A stretch of DNA of 6,976 nucleotides from Actinomycetota bacterium. Its GTDB lineage: Bacteria; Actinomycetota; Thermoleophilia; RBG-16-64-13. Positions 1 through 6,976 of the stretch are shown here, piece after piece. Location of the stretch: the NCBI GenBank assembly GCA_023488925.1, contig JAMDDA010000095.1, forward strand, positions 1-6,976, read 5' to 3'. Positions within the stretch are counted from its first letter, which is position 1. Each line of letters begins with the position of its first letter. The translations under genes and the position numbers were made by a program. The notes beneath the pieces were generated by a model. That model was not told the DNA's origin. It searched no databases and was given only the letters and a program-made list of their open reading frames with translations.

Positions 1-591
1 GGGTGGGCGCCCGGTTCCGCGCAAGTAACGCAGGGCATGAAGGAACAGATCCACGTCACGCAGAGGGCGACCGTCGTCGGAGAAGGCGGCCGCCCCGGCT
101 TCCGCCAGCTCCCGCAGTTCGGCCAGGGCCTCCCCGCGCAGACCCCGACTGACCGCACCCACTTGACCCACGCGCACGGAGGCCCGCTCTGCGGCCTGAT
201 CGAGCACCCAGGTAGCCAGGGGGCCGGTGTCTACCACCGGGTCGGTGTTGGCCATGCCGACCACCACCACGAATCCCCCGGCCGCCGCCGCCCGAGTCGC
301 CGAGGCCAGGTCTTCCTTGTACTCCTGACCCGGAGTACGCAGGTGGGCGTGGATATCGACGAATCCGGGGAATACGGCGCACCCGGCGGCTCCCTCCACA
401 ACCCGCGCGCCGGAGGAGACAGGCAGGTCTTCGCCGACGGCGGCGATGCGCCCCCCGTCGAGGAGCAGGTCGGCCAGGCAGTCGAGGCCGAGCTCCGGGT
501 CGAGCAGGCGGACGCGGGGCAAGAGGAGACGCACGGGTGGCGCCGGCCGGCAGGCCAGCCGCGGCGCCGGCGGAAGAGCGGAGGGCGACAT
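1..591 (-). CDS. pyrC: Dihydroorotase, class I, N-terminal 197 residues (runs off left edge)
   Basis: Open from an ATG at 591 to base 1 without a stop, so the C-terminal half or more is missing. Dihydroorotase interconverts carbamoyl-aspartate and dihydroorotate in de novo pyrimidine synthesis, in the cytoplasm. Visible family marks are LLDPELGLD near the N-terminus, the metal-binding VDIHAHLRTPGQEYKED (His81, His83), a GMANTDPVVD segment (about 112-121) and AAFSDDGRP (about 168-176). The last includes the Asp that serves as metal ligand in class I enzymes in place of the carboxylated lysine. The ATG at 591 is chosen because an AAAGGA Shine-Dalgarno lies 7 nt upstream and the PyrR element is placed as in pyrB. 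It gives about 18 more residues than most family members have; a GTG at codon 20 would give the usual length but has no visible ribosome binding site. Family identification is firm; the start is likely but not certain. Confidence 0.95.
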   Translation of the reverse strand, partial: MSPSALPPAPRLACRPAPPVRLLLPRVRLLDPELGLDCLADLLLDGGRIAAVGEDLPVSSGARVVEGAAGCAVFPGFVDIHAHLRTPGQEYKEDLASATRAAAAGGFVVVVGMANTDPVVDTGPLATWVLDQAAERASVRVGQVGAVSRGLRGEALAELRELAEAGAAAFSDDGRPLRDVDLFLHALRYLRGTGRPP

Positions 592-598
592 TGGGGTT

Positions 599-628
599 CC
601 TTTCGGTCTCACGGGACACGTTTAAAGG
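599..628 (-). promoter_or_regulatory. PyrR-binding RNA hairpin in the pyrC leader
   Basis: Read as RNA on the minus strand, this 30-nt element folds as a lower stem CCUUU/AAAGG, a three-base AAA bulge on the 5' side, a CG/CG pair block with one bulged U, and an upper stem GUC/GAC closed by the hexaloop CCGUGA. The hexaloop fits the CNGNGA loop of known PyrR binding loops, and a purine bulge on the 5' arm is also typical. The 3' arm AAAGG is part of the pyrC Shine-Dalgarno, so PyrR bound with UMP or UTP should block ribosome access. It differs from the pyrB copy at one base only, in a degenerate loop position. Confidence 0.85.
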
Positions 629-635
629 CGTCCCT

Positions 636-644
636 ATGGTATCA
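636..644 (-). promoter_or_regulatory. pyrC promoter, extended -10 (TGATACCAT)
   Basis: The -10 hexamer TACCAT (641..636) fits TANNNT and is preceded by TG one base upstream, an extended -10. No good -35 is seen at 17-18 bp spacing, as often with extended -10 promoters. The same hexamer lies at the same distance (7 nt) from the PyrR hairpin at pyrB, which supports both. Transcription would start near 629, giving a leader of about 38 nt. Confidence 0.6.
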
Positions 645-708
645 GTACCCGGGACCGAGGATCCACCACCGGCGACCCGGGCGCTCGGAGGGCGCGGCCT
701 ATTTCGGG

Positions 709-770: not shown

Positions 771-1172
771 GTGAGCAAGACCTGCTACAACTGCGGAACC
801 GAGAATGGCGACGTCGAGAGGTTCTGCCGCACGTGCGGTGCCGCCCTCGGGTCCCTGGCCGGCCTGCAACAATCAGGCATTCAGGCCGGAGCGGCCGAGG
901 AGCGCATCCTGTGGGAGAACGGCGAGATCAGCCTCACCACCGCCGCCGTCCTCATCGGCATGGACACCGACGCCCCCGACGTCGTGCCTTTGGAGACCAT
1001 CTACGACGTCGTGCTCGAGGACAGGTGCGTCATCCTCAAGGTAAAAGACGGCGACGACAGGTATTGCATGCTCGACGACCCGAACGAGCTCGCCACCCTC
1101 ATTCGGGAGCACATGTTGCGCCCCCGCCTGGCCCACGGCCGGAAAGACCTGGGGTATATCCCCCCGGAGTGA
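771..1172 (+). CDS. Small zinc-ribbon protein of unknown function
   Basis: Encodes 133 residues. The GTG at 771 is chosen because AAGGAGG ends 5 nt upstream and because translation from it begins directly with the conserved-looking domain; in-frame ATGs further upstream have no such site. Residues 5-22 form a CxxC...CxxC zinc ribbon (Cys5, Cys8, Cys19, Cys22) of the type found at the N-terminus of many small bacterial proteins. A linker (about 25-44) follows. Then residues 45-115 alternate short hydrophobic strands (ILWENGEISLT, VVPLETIYDVVLED, CVILKVKDGDDRYCML) and end in a helix (PNELATLIREHM), reminiscent of a PH-like or GRAM-like fold. There is no membrane segment or signal peptide, so it is probably cytoplasmic. 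It is transcribed divergently from pyrC and converges on the iron permease gene. The function is not known; the PH-like assignment is an inference from the strand pattern. Confidence 0.8.
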   Translation: MSKTCYNCGTENGDVERFCRTCGAALGSLAGLQQSGIQAGAAEERILWENGEISLTTAAVLIGMDTDAPDVVPLETIYDVVLEDRCVILKVKDGDDRYCMLDDPNELATLIREHMLRPRLAHGRKDLGYIPPE

Positions 1173-2388: not shown

Positions 2389-3300
2389 TCAGGCCGCTTG
2401 CGGATGGGGCGCCAGCACGTGGTACAGGATGGCCATGCGCACGGCCAACCCCGACTCCACCTGATGCAGGATCAGTGAGCGGTCGCTGTCGGCCAAGTCG
2501 CCCGTGATCTCCACGCCTCGGTTGATGGGGCCCGGGTGCATCACGCGCTGGTCGGGGCGCAGTCTTCGCGGGGAAAGCCCCCAGAGCCGGCTGTATTCCC
2601 GCAGACTGGGCACCGGAGGCACCTTGCCCTTGGCCCGCTCGAGCTGCATGCGCAACACGTAGACCACGTCCACCTCGTCCAGGGCCTCCAGGTCGTGGTA
2701 CACGGGGACCCCCCAGTGCTCGATGCCGGGAGGGATGAGGGTGGGCGGGCCCACCAGACGGACGTCGATGCCCATCTTCCGGAAGCCGAATACATTCGAA
2801 CGGGCCACCCGGCTGCGGAGGACGTCCCCCACGATCGCCACCTTGAGACCCTCCAGCCGGCCGTAGGTGCGGCGCAGGCTGTAGAGGTCGAGCAGGCACT
2901 GCGTGGGGTGCTCCCCGGCCCCGTCGCCGGCGTTCACCACGCGGGCGGTGGTGTACCGCGCCGCCATGCGGCAGGCCCCCACCTGGTGGTGGCGCATCAC
3001 GATGATGTCCGGCCGGTAGCTCTCCAGGGTGAGGATGGTGTCTTTCAGGCTCTCGCCCTTGCTGACGCTCGATCCCGAGGCTTTGATGTTCACCACATCG
3101 GCCGAGAGACGCTTGCCGGCCAGCTCGAACGAGGTGAGGGTTCTGGTGGAGGCTTCGAAGAACATGTTGATCTGGGTACGGCCCCGCAGGGTGGGGACCT
3201 TCTTGATGGGGCGCGAAGCCACCTCCAGGAAGCCGTCGCTCAGCCGGAAGAGGGTGTCGATGTCGGCCGGGGAGAGATCGTCGACGGAGAGCAAGTGCAT
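2389..3300 (-). CDS. pyrB: Aspartate carbamoyltransferase catalytic subunit
   Basis: Encodes 303 residues, the normal length. It condenses carbamoyl phosphate with aspartate, the committed step of pyrimidine synthesis. Carbamoyl-phosphate binding motifs are FFEASTRT (47-54), KGESLKDT (81-88) and HPTQ (131-134). Aspartate-side and domain-closure motifs include VGDVLRSRVARSN (157-169), YVLRMQLER (214-222) and HPGPINRGVEI (255-265). All are intact, and the aspartate-side signature separates it from ornithine carbamoyltransferase. The position after STRT is Leu, where Arg or Lys is frequent. No pyrI regulatory subunit is nearby. The ATG at 3300 has AAAGGGA as ribosome binding site with 7 nt between the G run and the start, inside the PyrR hairpin. 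The gene has its own promoter and is separated from pyrC by efeU and the zinc-ribbon gene, so it looks monocistronic. Confidence 0.97.
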   Translation of the reverse strand: MHLLSVDDLSPADIDTLFRLSDGFLEVASRPIKKVPTLRGRTQINMFFEASTRTLTSFELAGKRLSADVVNIKASGSSVSKGESLKDTILTLESYRPDIIVMRHHQVGACRMAARYTTARVVNAGDGAGEHPTQCLLDLYSLRRTYGRLEGLKVAIVGDVLRSRVARSNVFGFRKMGIDVRLVGPPTLIPPGIEHWGVPVYHDLEALDEVDVVYVLRMQLERAKGKVPPVPSLREYSRLWGLSPRRLRPDQRVMHPGPINRGVEITGDLADSDRSLILHQVESGLAVRMAILYHVLAPHPQAA

Positions 3301-3308
3301 GGCGGTTC

Positions 3309-3338
3309 CCTTTCGGTCTCACAGGACACGTTTAAAGG
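3309..3338 (-). promoter_or_regulatory. PyrR-binding RNA hairpin in the pyrB leader
   Basis: It has the same structure as the pyrC element: lower stem CCUUU/AAAGG, 5' AAA bulge, CG/CG with a bulged U, and upper stem GUC/GAC, here with hexaloop CUGUGA (fits CNGNGA). Across 30 nt it differs from the pyrC copy only at the second loop base (U for C). The 3' arm is the core of the pyrB Shine-Dalgarno. No terminator-like hairpin with a T run follows before the start codon, which argues for translational rather than attenuation control. Confidence 0.87.
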
Positions 3339-3345
3339 TCGTCTC

Positions 3346-3351
3346 ATGGTA
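3346..3351 (-). promoter_or_regulatory. pyrB promoter -10 (TACCAT)
   Basis: This hexamer is identical to the pyrC -10 and, as there, ends 7 nt before the PyrR hairpin. The -35 region (TTCTCG at 17-bp spacing) is poor and there is no TG extension. The start would be near 3339, giving a leader of about 39 nt. Confidence 0.5.
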
Positions 3352-3396: not shown

Positions 3397-3432
3397 GCGA
3401 TCCCCCCGAATAACCGCAGCGCCTCGTGCTAC
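3397..3432. repeat. 36-bp imperfect direct repeat, copy 1
   Basis: This matches 3468-3503 at 32 of 36 bases, and its last 21 bases (3412-3432) are identical to 3483-3503. The two copies have a 71-bp period. The stretch between pyrB and the next gene contains no reading frame I can support. Confidence 0.8.
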
Positions 3433-3467: not shown

Positions 3468-3503
3468 GCGATCCACCCCAGCAACCGCAGCGCCTCGTGC
3501 TAC
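3468..3503. repeat. 36-bp imperfect direct repeat, copy 2
   Basis: This is the partner of 3397-3432. Its 3' end runs into a good extended -10 sequence (TGCTACAGT), while copy 1 reads TGCTACTCG at the same place and does not fit TANNNT. Copy 1 may therefore be a decayed or silent promoter copy, or both may be binding sites for one regulator. Confidence 0.8.
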
Positions 3504-3552: not shown

Positions 3553-4137
3553 ATGTCCAAGACACTCACCCTGCCCGCCCGCCACGAGGGTCCCCACGCC
3601 TGGCTCGGCCGGCTGGTGCGCGCCGACGCCGAACGTCGCCTCGCCCGGGGCCACTCGGTGGGGATCACCCTGGCCGCACTCACCCAGGCGGAATGGGACT
3701 GGCTCAAGAACGGCTGGTGCTGGGCTCGGCCGGACCGCACCCGCCTCACCTTCGACGAGCCCAACGACTACCTCGACACGCTGGTGGCCCGCCACGCCGA
3801 GAAACACCTGGCCGTCTCCGACCAGCTCGACGCCTCGTTGCCCGCCGACCACCCCGCCCGCCTCGAGAAAGCCGCCCGACCCCGAGAACAACGCCTCGCG
3901 GCGCTGCGCGCGGCCATCTGGGCCCATCTGGCCCACGGCTTCTGCCGGATCGAGGACGACGGCGACGACATCGTGTGGTGGCATCTCACCAAGGAGACTT
4001 TCGTGCCTTTTGACGCCGACTACAACCTGGCCTACGTGGAGTGGCAAGGTCTCTTCCGGCAAATCGGCCAGTCGGTGCAGCACCCGGACAACCGGCCGTA
4101 CCTCGGACCCTCCCGGCCCCGCAAACCGCTGCCGTGA
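3553..4137 (+). CDS. Trp-rich hypothetical protein, 194 residues
   Basis: I do not recognise the family. The ATG at 3553 has AAGGGGG 5 nt upstream and follows the only good promoter in the spacer; the open frame extends far upstream but only as antisense to pyrB. The protein is soluble, with no signal peptide or membrane helix. It holds nine Trp (17, 48, 50, 55, 57, 123, 142, 143, 164), among them the clusters EWDWLKNGWCW (47-57) and DDIVWWHLT (138-146). A long charged, probably helical middle part (about 70-128, from NDYLDTLVARHAEKH to AALRAAIWAHLAH) is followed by a short acidic hairpin-like segment IEDDGDDIVWW. The Pro- and Arg-rich C-terminus (about 182-194) is probably disordered. Its coding use looks like that of its neighbours, with C or G in most third positions. 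It converges on pyrR with only 16 bp between the stops. No function can be assigned. Confidence 0.8.
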   Translation: MSKTLTLPARHEGPHAWLGRLVRADAERRLARGHSVGITLAALTQAEWDWLKNGWCWARPDRTRLTFDEPNDYLDTLVARHAEKHLAVSDQLDASLPADHPARLEKAARPREQRLAALRAAIWAHLAHGFCRIEDDGDDIVWWHLTKETFVPFDADYNLAYVEWQGLFRQIGQSVQHPDNRPYLGPSRPRKPLP

Positions 4138-4153: not shown

Positions 4154-4744
4154 TCACTCCGCGGGGGCGCGCCGCTCCAGCACCACCTCGTCTACCCCGT
4201 CCAGCTCGACCAACCGCACGCTGATCCGTTCGCTGCGGCTGGTGGGCACGTTCTTGCCCACGAAATCCGGGCGGATGGGGAGTTCGCGATGACCGCGGTC
4301 CACCAAGACAGCGAGCCTCACGGCGCTGGGACGACCATAGTCGAACAGGGCGTCGATGGCCGCCCGGATGGTGCGCCCCGTGAAGAGCACATCGTCTACC
4401 AACACGATCGTGCGCCCTTCGACGGCGAAAGGTACCGAGGTGGAATGCACCACCGGCTGGTCGTAGGCCGACCCGGGCACGCGGGTGTCGATATCATCGC
4501 GGTAGAAGGTGATATCGATCGCCCCGGTGGGCGGACGGATGCCGTAATGCTCGGCAAGCAGGTCGGCCAGGCGGGCGGCCAGCTCCACCCCGCGGCGCTG
4601 GATACCGACCAGGGCAAGATCACCCAGCTCCGGAGACTGTTCGGCGATCTCGTGAGCGATGCGCGTGAGCGTGCGGCGCAGCCGCCCGCCGTCGAGCAGG
4701 ACCTTCTCACCACCCTCCGCTCCGGTCGCCCCTCCGCTCAACAC
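4154..4744 (-). CDS. pyrR: Bifunctional pyr RNA-binding regulator / uracil phosphoribosyltransferase
   Basis: Encodes 196 residues; PyrR proteins are usually near 180. PyrR binds hairpins in pyr mRNA leaders when charged with UMP or UTP; PRPP counteracts this. Many PyrR also convert uracil plus PRPP to UMP. The PRPP-binding motif [12 protein letters not shown] (114-125) is intact. Other family marks are [12 protein letters not shown] (22-33), [12 protein letters not shown] (45-56), TFYRDDI (79-85) and [23 protein letters not shown] (147-169). The GTG at 4744 overlaps the opcA stop by 7 bases (GTGTTGA), pointing to translational coupling; an adjacent in-frame TTG at 4741 would give better spacing to GGAGG and is an alternative. 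About ten N-terminal residues rich in Gly and Ala are extra. No PyrR hairpin or promoter is seen in front, so it should be expressed with opcA and zwf. Targets are very likely the two hairpins before pyrB and pyrC. Confidence 0.95.
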
Positions 4745-6003
4745 GCCTCCACCCCCCCTTGCCGGCCACGCAGGCCCTGCGCGCCGGGCAACGCAGCCAA
4801 GGCGGCCGCCATGCGCAGGGCTTCCTCGTACACCGGGTCGGGACCCAGAAGATCGAGCTCCTCGGAGAGGAGCCGGTCCTCCGGCCGGGGCGACACGTCC
4901 ACCGTGCGTACCAGCTCTTCCGCGCCGCCCTGCCCTCGACGCACCCGGGCCGCGCACACACACGCCTCGCCCATCCGCGCCACGGAGAGCACGGTCGGGG
5001 CGGAGGCTCCCCCGGTCGGACCGACGTACAGGTGCACGCCCACCAGACCACCCGGCACCCCGCAGGGCGTCTCCCGGGGTGCCAGCAGTACCTCTATCTC
5101 GCCGGCCTCGGCAGTTGCCCCCCGGGCGAACCGGACGCGCAGGGCCTGGTCGTCGCCTTGTCCGGCGTCACCGACCGGCCTCCAGCCCAGACGCGAGGCC
5201 AGCCACCCCACGAGTAAGAGGGCCCGGGCGGCGGCCGGCTCGAGGGCCCGGCGGGGGCTGGCGTAGGTGTCCTCACTGCCGTACTCCACCAGTACACGCT
5301 CGATCCGGGGGAGCCAGACTCGCCGCGAGGGATCTTCGAAGAGGTCGGCGGTAACCTCGCGCCAGGGCGTAAGGCGCGCCCAGTTGAGATCATCGAGCGC
5401 GAAGTTGCGGGAGCGGTCGGCCGCCACTCCGGCCAAAGCCACCAATCCGCCCAGAGGATCACGGAAACCGGCACTGTCGACCAGCACCATATCCGAAACC
5501 TCGCCCAGTTGGCGGAAGATGTGCCCGTCCAGCACGGGCTCCCCCGGCCACCAGAGAACCGTGGGCAGTTCCGGGACCAGCAGCCGCATGGCGGCCGTGT
5601 GCAACAAACCGACGGCCTCTCCGCGCGCCGGCACGGTCACCTGCTCCCAACAGACGTGGCGCCCGCCCTCCCGGGTCCGGTAACACGCGGCCGACACCCA
5701 GGCTTCGACCAACTCGGCACCGGCCTGCCCCGGGCCGGCATCCAGCAGAACGATGGCACGGCCCGGATGGCGCTGCGCGAGGCGGGCCACCACGGCCGAT
5801 ATTCGGTCAGCCATGTCCTCCCCGCCGGCGTAAGCGACAAAGTTGAACTCGCGCAGGCGCAGGACCCCCTCCTCCCCCTGACGCCGGGCTTCGTCGCCGG
5901 CCGCGTGCCACAACTCCTGCAGCTCCTGCTCGGCCCGGCCCAGGTCGACCTTGCGCGAGCTCCCCAAGGTGAAAACCAGTTCTTCGTCGGCGATGGCACC
6001 CAT
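4738..6003 (-). CDS. opcA: Glucose-6-phosphate dehydrogenase assembly/activator protein OpcA
   Basis: Encodes 421 residues, somewhat longer than many OpcA proteins. OpcA associates with glucose-6-phosphate dehydrogenase and is required for its full activity or assembly, best known in cyanobacteria and actinobacteria. Recognisable segments are [13 protein letters not shown] (50-62), [11 protein letters not shown] (78-88), [11 protein letters not shown] (146-156), DSAGFRDP (176-183), [18 protein letters not shown] (205-222) and the C-terminal [16 protein letters not shown] (381-396). The ATG at 6003 has GGGGAGG 5 nt upstream; the frame stays open further upstream but only antisense to itself within the end of zwf. 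It follows zwf after 34 bp and overlaps pyrR, making a zwf-opcA-pyrR transcription unit. The C-terminal tail (about 397-421) is Ala- and Gly-rich and ends in the overlap with pyrR. Confidence 0.92.
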
Positions 6004-6037: not shown

Positions 6038-6976
6038 TCACAGCCGCCGCCACTGGCGACCGTCCCGGTCGACCAGTTGCTCCGCTCCGGGCGGGCCCCA
6101 GCCGCCCGACTCGTACGGCTCGGGCGGTGGATACCCGGGACTGCGCCAGCGCTCGACGATGCCGTCGATGAAGGTCCAGGCCGCTTCCACCCCGTCGTCA
6201 CGGGTGAAGAGCGTGGAGTCCCCCAGCATGCAGTCGAGGAGGAGGCGCTCGTAGGCGTCGGCGGTCCGCACTCCGAAAGAGGTGCCGTAGCTGAAGTCCA
6301 TGTTCACTTGGTGCACGTGCACCACCGGGCCGGGCACCTTGGAACCGAACTTCAAGGTGATGCCTTCGTTCGGCTGGATGTGCATGGCCAGCACGTTGGG
6401 CTCGAGCTCCGCGGCCGCCTCTGCCCCGAACAGCAAGAGGGGAGGCCGTTTGAACTGGATGGCCACCTCGGTGGCACGCTTGGCCAGCCGCTTGCCCGTG
6501 CGTAGATAGAAGGGCACATCGGCCCAACGCCAACTGTCCACGAAGACCCGCATGGCCACGAAGGTCTCGGTGCGGGAGGCGGGAGCCACCCCTTTCTCCT
6601 CGCGGTAGCCGGGCACCCGCTGGCCGCCGGAAAGCCCGGCCACGTACTGCCCCCGCACGACGTCGGCGTCGACCTGCCCGCCCACAAGCGGGCGCAGGCT
6701 GCGCAAGACCTTGACCTTCTCGTCGCGCACCGGCCCCGCCCCGAAGGCCGTCGGAGGTTCCATGGCCACCAGGGCCAGCAGCTGCAGCATGTGGTTCTGG
6801 ATGATATCCCGCAAGGCCCCGGCTTCCTCGTAGTAGGCACCCCGGCCCTCCACTCCGAGATCCTCGGCGACGGTGATTTGCACGTGGTCCACGAACTGGC
6901 GGTTCCAAACCGGCTCGAAGATGGCGTTGGCCAGCCGGAAGACCAGGATGTTCTGCACCGTCTCCTTGCCCAGGTA
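6038..6976 (-). CDS. zwf: Glucose-6-phosphate 1-dehydrogenase, C-terminal 312 residues (runs off right edge)
   Basis: The frame is open to the last base of the window; about 190 N-terminal residues, including the NADP-binding Rossmann part, lie outside. The enzyme oxidises glucose 6-phosphate to 6-phosphogluconolactone with reduction of NADP+, the entry to the oxidative pentose phosphate pathway. The fragment begins with YLGKET, the end of the DHYLGKE active-site motif, and continues with [18 protein letters not shown] and [10 protein letters not shown]. Further family marks are [20 protein letters not shown], the [11 protein letters not shown] segment, [18 protein letters not shown] [17 protein letters not shown], and [26 protein letters not shown]. 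The end, [25 protein letters not shown], is typical of actinobacterial-type Zwf. It is the first visible gene of the run that includes opcA and pyrR; its promoter is outside. Confidence 0.97.

Follow-up and report, generated by a model that had tools for sequence, protein, structure and literature searches.

How can a single RNA-binding regulator keep hold of a pathway whose genes stand in separate operons? The window, by which we mean the whole stretch of 6,976 nt analysed here, raises this question with two nearly identical 30-nt elements, one in the leader of pyrC and one in that of pyrB. Read by coordinate, its minus strand carries pyrC (cut), a gene for an EfeU-type iron permease, pyrB, pyrR, opcA and zwf (cut). 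The main genes are:

1..591, minus strand: pyrC (dihydroorotase), first 197 codons, truncated at the edge of the window
2389..3300, minus strand: pyrB, aspartate carbamoyltransferase (NF002032 above cut-off)
4154..4744, minus strand: pyrR (NF003549 above cut-off), start at GTG 4744 or TTG 4741
4738..6003, minus strand: opcA, a pentose-phosphate gene directly upstream of pyrR
6038..6976, minus strand: zwf (glucose-6-phosphate dehydrogenase), truncated at the edge of the window

The profile match confirms that pyrR lies in the same window, as the preliminary description of this DNA had claimed. Its product aligns with solved PyrR proteins at a best E of 1.7e-57, and a stretch of 24 residues, which we take to be the RNA contact region, is identical between the window protein and a solved PyrR. 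Some neighbouring features deserve mention in their own right. Both Pfam domains of OpcA (4738-6003, minus strand) pass, and TIGR00534 gives 102 bits against a cut-off of 256; judged by these scores, the protein is a divergent OpcA. Between pyrB and pyrC, on the strand opposite to both, lies a small gene with two CxxC pairs (771-1172, plus strand), which has relatives at the same place in genomes G001, G004, G010, G012 and G014. Another plus-strand gene (3553-4137), between pyrR and pyrB, is without a match to any Pfam or NCBIfam family and was matched in G001 only among the loci of the window's own family, f1. A direct repeat, aaccgcagcgcctcgtgctac, occupies 3412-3432 and 3483-3503 in the gap upstream of pyrB.

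The two elements and the putative signals that surround them are:

599..628, minus strand: predicted PyrR binding-loop hairpin, pyrC leader, CCTTTAAACGTGTCCCGTGAGACCGAAAGG (53.8 bits, E 1.3e-7, covariance model, own genome)
598..603, minus strand: Shine-Dalgarno-like AAAGGA, pyrC, 5 of 6 bases within the hairpin 3' arm, putative function
636..641, minus strand: -10-like TACCAT, pyrC, 7 nt upstream of the hairpin, putative promoter
660..665, minus strand: possible -35 TGGATC, pyrC, weak (3 of 6 to TTGACA, spacer 18)
3309..3338, minus strand: predicted PyrR binding-loop hairpin, pyrB leader, CCTTTAAACGTGTCCTGTGAGACCGAAAGG (53.1 bits, E 1.8e-7, covariance model, own genome)
3308..3313, minus strand: Shine-Dalgarno-like AAAGGG, pyrB, 5 of 6 bases within the hairpin 3' arm, putative function
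3346..3351, minus strand: -10-like TACCAT, pyrB, 7 nt upstream of the hairpin, putative promoter

The coordinates of both 30-nt elements proved exact, and their only difference, at element position 16, falls on position 2 of a CNGNGA hexaloop, as had been claimed; this hexaloop is the motif of PyrR binding loops. The window holds 2 matches within 3 mismatches of the element, vs none in any of 200 dinucleotide shuffles, and throughout its own 65%-complete assembly the same pattern (up to 3 mismatches) finds only these two sites. As the flanks of the two sites are dissimilar, agreeing at 16 of 40 nt upstream and 10 of 30 nt downstream, sequence identity ends at the element borders. The bulged stem-loop described earlier was also recovered at both elements, with the fold (((((...((.(((......)))))))))) at -5.6 kcal/mol each. 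In this fold, an AAA bulge separates a lower and an upper stem of 5 bp each; the upper stem carries a single bulged U and ends in a six-base loop. In a PyrR binding loop, the 5' strand bears a purine-rich bulge between its two stems. Both stems and such a bulge are found here, with UUUAA invariant save for one base in three carB sites (see below), and the elements stand in leaders of pyr genes within a pyrR-bearing genome.

Folding energy was dropped as a line of evidence, with z-scores of -1.4 and -1.2 for the two elements, which is not significant. When the pyrC site is folded within 86 nt of context, some bases further upstream included, a different structure is favoured; we set it aside because most of these bases precede the start of the predicted mRNA. 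For the predicted 60-nt transcripts of the window's pyrB and pyrC, 24-31% of the modelled ensemble contains the lower stem. The modelled hairpin is weak by itself, as would be expected of a switch that is clamped by a protein. Across 48 f1 leaders, the modelled probability of the lower stem is scattered from 0.01 to 0.95.

The check proposed in the preliminary description, i.e. recognition of both sites by the Rfam model RF00515, failed: neither site reached the cut-off of 54 bits, the window alone gave no match at E 10, and in the window's own genome the pyrB site was the sole match at E 10, with 19.2 bits. The name RF00515 refers to the same PyrR-binding element; the model spans 115 positions vs the 30 nt of the element here, and it scored above cut-off in just 2 of 14 control genomes. 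RF00515 therefore misses PyrR sites of the f1 kind. The scores listed above come from a covariance model built on 33 sites (32 from f1, 1 from family f3); across many genomes, its search scores part of the candidates, and site counts are to be read as lower bounds.

Are these hairpins kept in relatives? We searched 60 of them, 17 in f1 and 43 in seven other families of the class; f1 counts are given for 18 genomes, the window's own included. The preliminary description had named the orthologous pyrB and pyrC leaders as a decisive place to look, and the hairpins are present there, before pyrB in 15/18 and before pyrC in 17/18 genomes, the latter count including G003 (loop UCGUGA) and G007 (loop-closing pair A-U, not C-G). 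Hairpins are missing before pyrB in G010 and G014, where pyrB follows about 15 nt behind pyrR, and the degenerate element before pyrB of G002 was counted as missing. The one pyrC without an intact hairpin, that of G008, lies about 49 nt behind pyrB and retains a remnant only. For pyrC of G008 and pyrB of G010 and G014, the need for a hairpin may be gone, with the element decayed or absent.

The covariance model additionally found a third type of site, in carB leaders, with at least 16 sites in at least 15 of the 18 f1 genomes; the downstream frame is carB at all 16 (L281 among them). carA lies downstream of pyrC in 16/17 f1 relatives and was unmatched in L214. In relatives, the PyrR regulon would thus comprise at least three operons, pyrB, pyrC-carA and carB. 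carB was not found in G014, nor in the window's own genome, where its absence is uninformative given the 65% completeness of the assembly; in G001, a member of the same genus, carB does have the third hairpin. The only carB detected in G017 is 53% identical to that of G003 and lies on a short contig, on which no hairpin was visible. The G003 carB product passes the carB profile, and a pyrK-like gene (below cut-offs) comes next downstream. In G010, carB is present twice; the two genes differ from each other, are separated by about 6.6 kb and both have a hairpin (L276:1277-1306 and 7934-7963).

Conservation within these sites follows the structure. The alignment of f1 sites (A4; 48 sites, 36 distinct) has standard pairs in 99.2% of its pair cells; a further alignment, A3, was excluded from all counts. 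The hexaloop CNGNGA occurs in 47 of the 48 f1 sites, both window sites among them, the exception being pyrC of G003 with UCGUGA. Both sides change together at pair 13-22 (U-A, C-G, G-C), at pair 14-21 (C-G to A-U) and at pair 3-28 (U-A to G-C), pairing falls to 28-63% when the partner is slid along the alignment, and the covariation score was reached by none of 500 shuffles, in a test that is inflated by relatedness. With three pairs showing compensatory changes, an RNA hairpin is supported. At position 8, 16/17 pyrC sites have A and 16/16 carB sites have U, and because of this split by gene the copies look inherited gene by gene.

The position of the hairpins suggests what they might do. In both window sites, a Shine-Dalgarno-like sequence lies within the hairpin just 5' of the start codon, as in the Mycobacterium smegmatis type of PyrR control, and the distance from hairpin to AUG is 7-8 nt. 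Among f1 pyrB and pyrC leaders, the first ATG comes 3-10 nt past the hairpin in 30/32, with GTG in the other 2. The carB leaders (n=16) are less uniform, with 0-38 nt between hairpin and first ATG, and since the stem of three of the 16 reads AACGG, not AAAGG, the Shine-Dalgarno sequence lies outside the stem there; these carB hairpins (L270, L278, L279) have the compensated stem CCGUU/AACGG, from which the Shine-Dalgarno sequence is shifted out.

Upstream of the hairpin, a TANNNT box lies at 7 nt in 15/17 f1 pyrC leaders (8 nt in 2) and in 4/15 f1 pyrB leaders (10-21 nt in 11); for f1 carB, the nearest such box is 7-9 nt upstream in 15/16 and 13 nt in one. As a possible -35, nine of the 17 f1 pyrC leaders have TGGACC with a spacer of 17. 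A strict sigma-70 scan of the window returned zero promoters, so that those of the window's pyrB and pyrC are putative and deduced from sequence. If transcription started about 7 nt past the box, the hairpin would form the 5' end of the pyrC mRNAs and of the mRNA from the window's pyrB.

These features bear on the choice between several explanations. Attenuation of transcription in the Bacillus style, in which bound PyrR favours a leader terminator, is the best-known use of the PyrR hairpin (PMC4347634, PMC6296669), and it finds a precedent in the sister family f3, where a short reading frame comes after the hairpin and then a terminator-like stem ending in a T run. Yet not one of the 48 f1 hairpins has a terminator-like site within 150 nt downstream, vs 3.1 expected from base shuffles, the nearest same-strand site in the window is located about 535 nt past the pyrC hairpin and inside the gene, and the 7-8 nt between hairpin and AUG also argue against attenuation, which we consider improbable in f1. 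A Shine-Dalgarno-like sequence in the hairpin, together with the lack of a terminator, fits better with translational repression.

In f3 itself, the script used for f1 detected terminator-like sites within 150 nt at 5/9 usable sites (L255 was left out), and more were seen by eye. Its pyrR leaders (L216, L230, L138, L282, L284, L285, L286) show hairpin, short frame, and GC stem with T run, and f3 thus seems to couple leader translation to termination. One kind of hairpin thus seems to serve attenuation in f3 and to act directly at the start codon in f1. A second PyrR-type hairpin was noticed in f3 (L283:1355-1445 in G049; L284:1243-1330 in G059), followed by a short frame (MMQ...), a stem with a seven-T run and a small Cys-rich frame; this arrangement resembles a PyrR attenuator with a leader peptide that serves a new target. 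L138:1260-1460 of G049 (contained in L003, the only locus that we used from one set of 80) includes a pyrR ahead of pyrB whose match to the window's PyrR is confined to residues 122-188; on a different contig of this genome, L282, there is a more complete pyrR, which has a hairpin of its own.

Equally improbable in our view is that the hairpins are inherited relics which outlived PyrR control, with PyrR serving only as a uracil phosphoribosyltransferase. The f1 pyrR genes, without hairpin and behind pentose-phosphate genes, would suit such a loss, as would the two pyrB genes without hairpin and the one with a degenerate element, but loop and pairing are conserved over 48 sites with compensatory changes, and this conservation points to continuing selection. 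Least probable of all is a DNA operator for some repressor beside the -10 box, with an incidental hairpin shape: in many leaders a -10-like box does lie directly upstream of the element, but its pairs are kept through both-side changes, it never varies in orientation or in its position with respect to the start codon, and the same PyrR hairpin precedes pyrR elsewhere in the phylum.

In our view, the hairpins are likely PyrR binding loops, and each of the separated pyrimidine operons would have one of them as its own translational switch. In the mechanism that we propose, each gene would have its own promoter, with the mRNA beginning at the hairpin or just before it. PyrR bound to UMP or UTP would hold the hairpin closed and thereby mask the Shine-Dalgarno sequence, which would prevent synthesis of PyrB and PyrC. 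Once uridine nucleotides drop or PRPP competes, PyrR would release the RNA, and the weak hairpin (-5.6 kcal/mol) would open.

A wider survey indicates where this arrangement may have come from. All 23 loci from families f2-f8 carry pyrR, pyrB and pyrC in that order on one strand, followed by carA in 22 (the L231 stretch ends early). A single hairpin precedes pyrR in 21 of the 23 by pattern, with variants recognized by eye in L220 and L233. No pentose-phosphate gene was matched near pyrR in these 23 loci, some of whose stretches reach only 0.2-1 kb upstream. Across the phylum, a strict pattern matched 274/396 genomes, with control matches in 3 genomes, and among the matches listed all 30 phylum hairpins stand before pyrR; a loose 19-base pattern with 2 mismatches, run on 61 genomes, had been dropped, its real and control counts being similar in size. 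Two or more strict matches occurred in 5 of the 6 f1 genomes drawn vs 5 of 390 others, in a draw that contained zero f3 genomes. In none of these five non-f1 genomes does the extra match represent a hairpin before a different pyr operon: G074 and G101 have sites without a matched pyr gene, G264 and G416 have an identical hairpin repeated on another contig, and G386 has two pyrR operons. The preliminary description had argued for a PyrR regulon with at least two targets at separate promoters, rather than a single attenuated operon. This reading is supported by the f1 orthologues, the covariation, the -10-like box at each site and the phylum-wide hairpin before pyrR, with the promoters themselves remaining predictions.

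In f1, no hairpin was found before pyrR. Going upstream from pyrR along its own strand, the first gene matched in all 18 genomes is one of opcA, pgl, tal and tkt, and the tblastn matches are separated by 0 to about 520 nt; this survey covered a chosen gene set, and small intervening genes are possible. In the window, opcA and pyrR overlap, at the stop of the former and the likely start of the latter. An ancestral operon pyrR-pyrB-pyrC-carA-carB may have broken up within f1, with a hairpin coming to stand before each of pyrB, pyrC-carA and carB, while pyrR would have lost its own hairpin and ended up behind pentose-phosphate genes. Ribose phosphate is the source of PRPP, a ligand of PyrR. It is conceivable, and we propose this tentatively, that the operon was split with a self-contained hairpin at the 5' end of each mRNA, and that pyrR, freed from self-control, is made together with pentose-phosphate enzymes, so that the ribose-phosphate pathway, from which PRPP derives, sets the amount of the sensor.

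The family would then represent a natural experiment on how one RNA-binding regulator can retain its hold on a pathway once the operon falls apart. It offers the contrast between one hairpin per intact operon in sister families and up to three in f1, along with hairpin decay where a gene again closely trails pyrB and the terminator-wired hairpin of f3. It also puts pyrR beside genes whose pathway yields the precursor of PyrR's ligand.

Judged by titles and the openings of abstracts, a literature search brought up no description of a translational PyrR regulon with one hairpin per operon, or of pyrR beside zwf or opcA; this is a weak negative, as most subscription papers lie outside the search. 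The closest relative in mechanism may be M. smegmatis, for which Fields and Switzer, in 2007, reportedly described PyrR-dependent translational repression of pyr genes. M. smegmatis has a single pyr operon led by pyrR. The f1 system resembles it in using PyrR in an actinomycetote with predicted control at translation, not attenuation, and differs from it in that a hairpin stands at each separated operon and none before pyrR.

In arrangement, the predicted f1 regulon resembles that of Lactococcus, where one PyrR likewise acts on several separate pyr operons, carB alone included (PMC10986495). Lactococcus differs in using attenuation with terminator and antiterminator, and in that pyrR heads one of the operons, pyrRPBcarA (PMC10986495). 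Several PyrR elements per genome are also described for Streptococcus pneumoniae, where they precede two pyr operons and a uracil transporter; there, control is by attenuation and the gene set is another one (PMC6296669). As far as can be judged from sequence comparison, both the regulator and the kind of hairpin in f1 are known from other bacteria, whereas their arrangement appears to be new.
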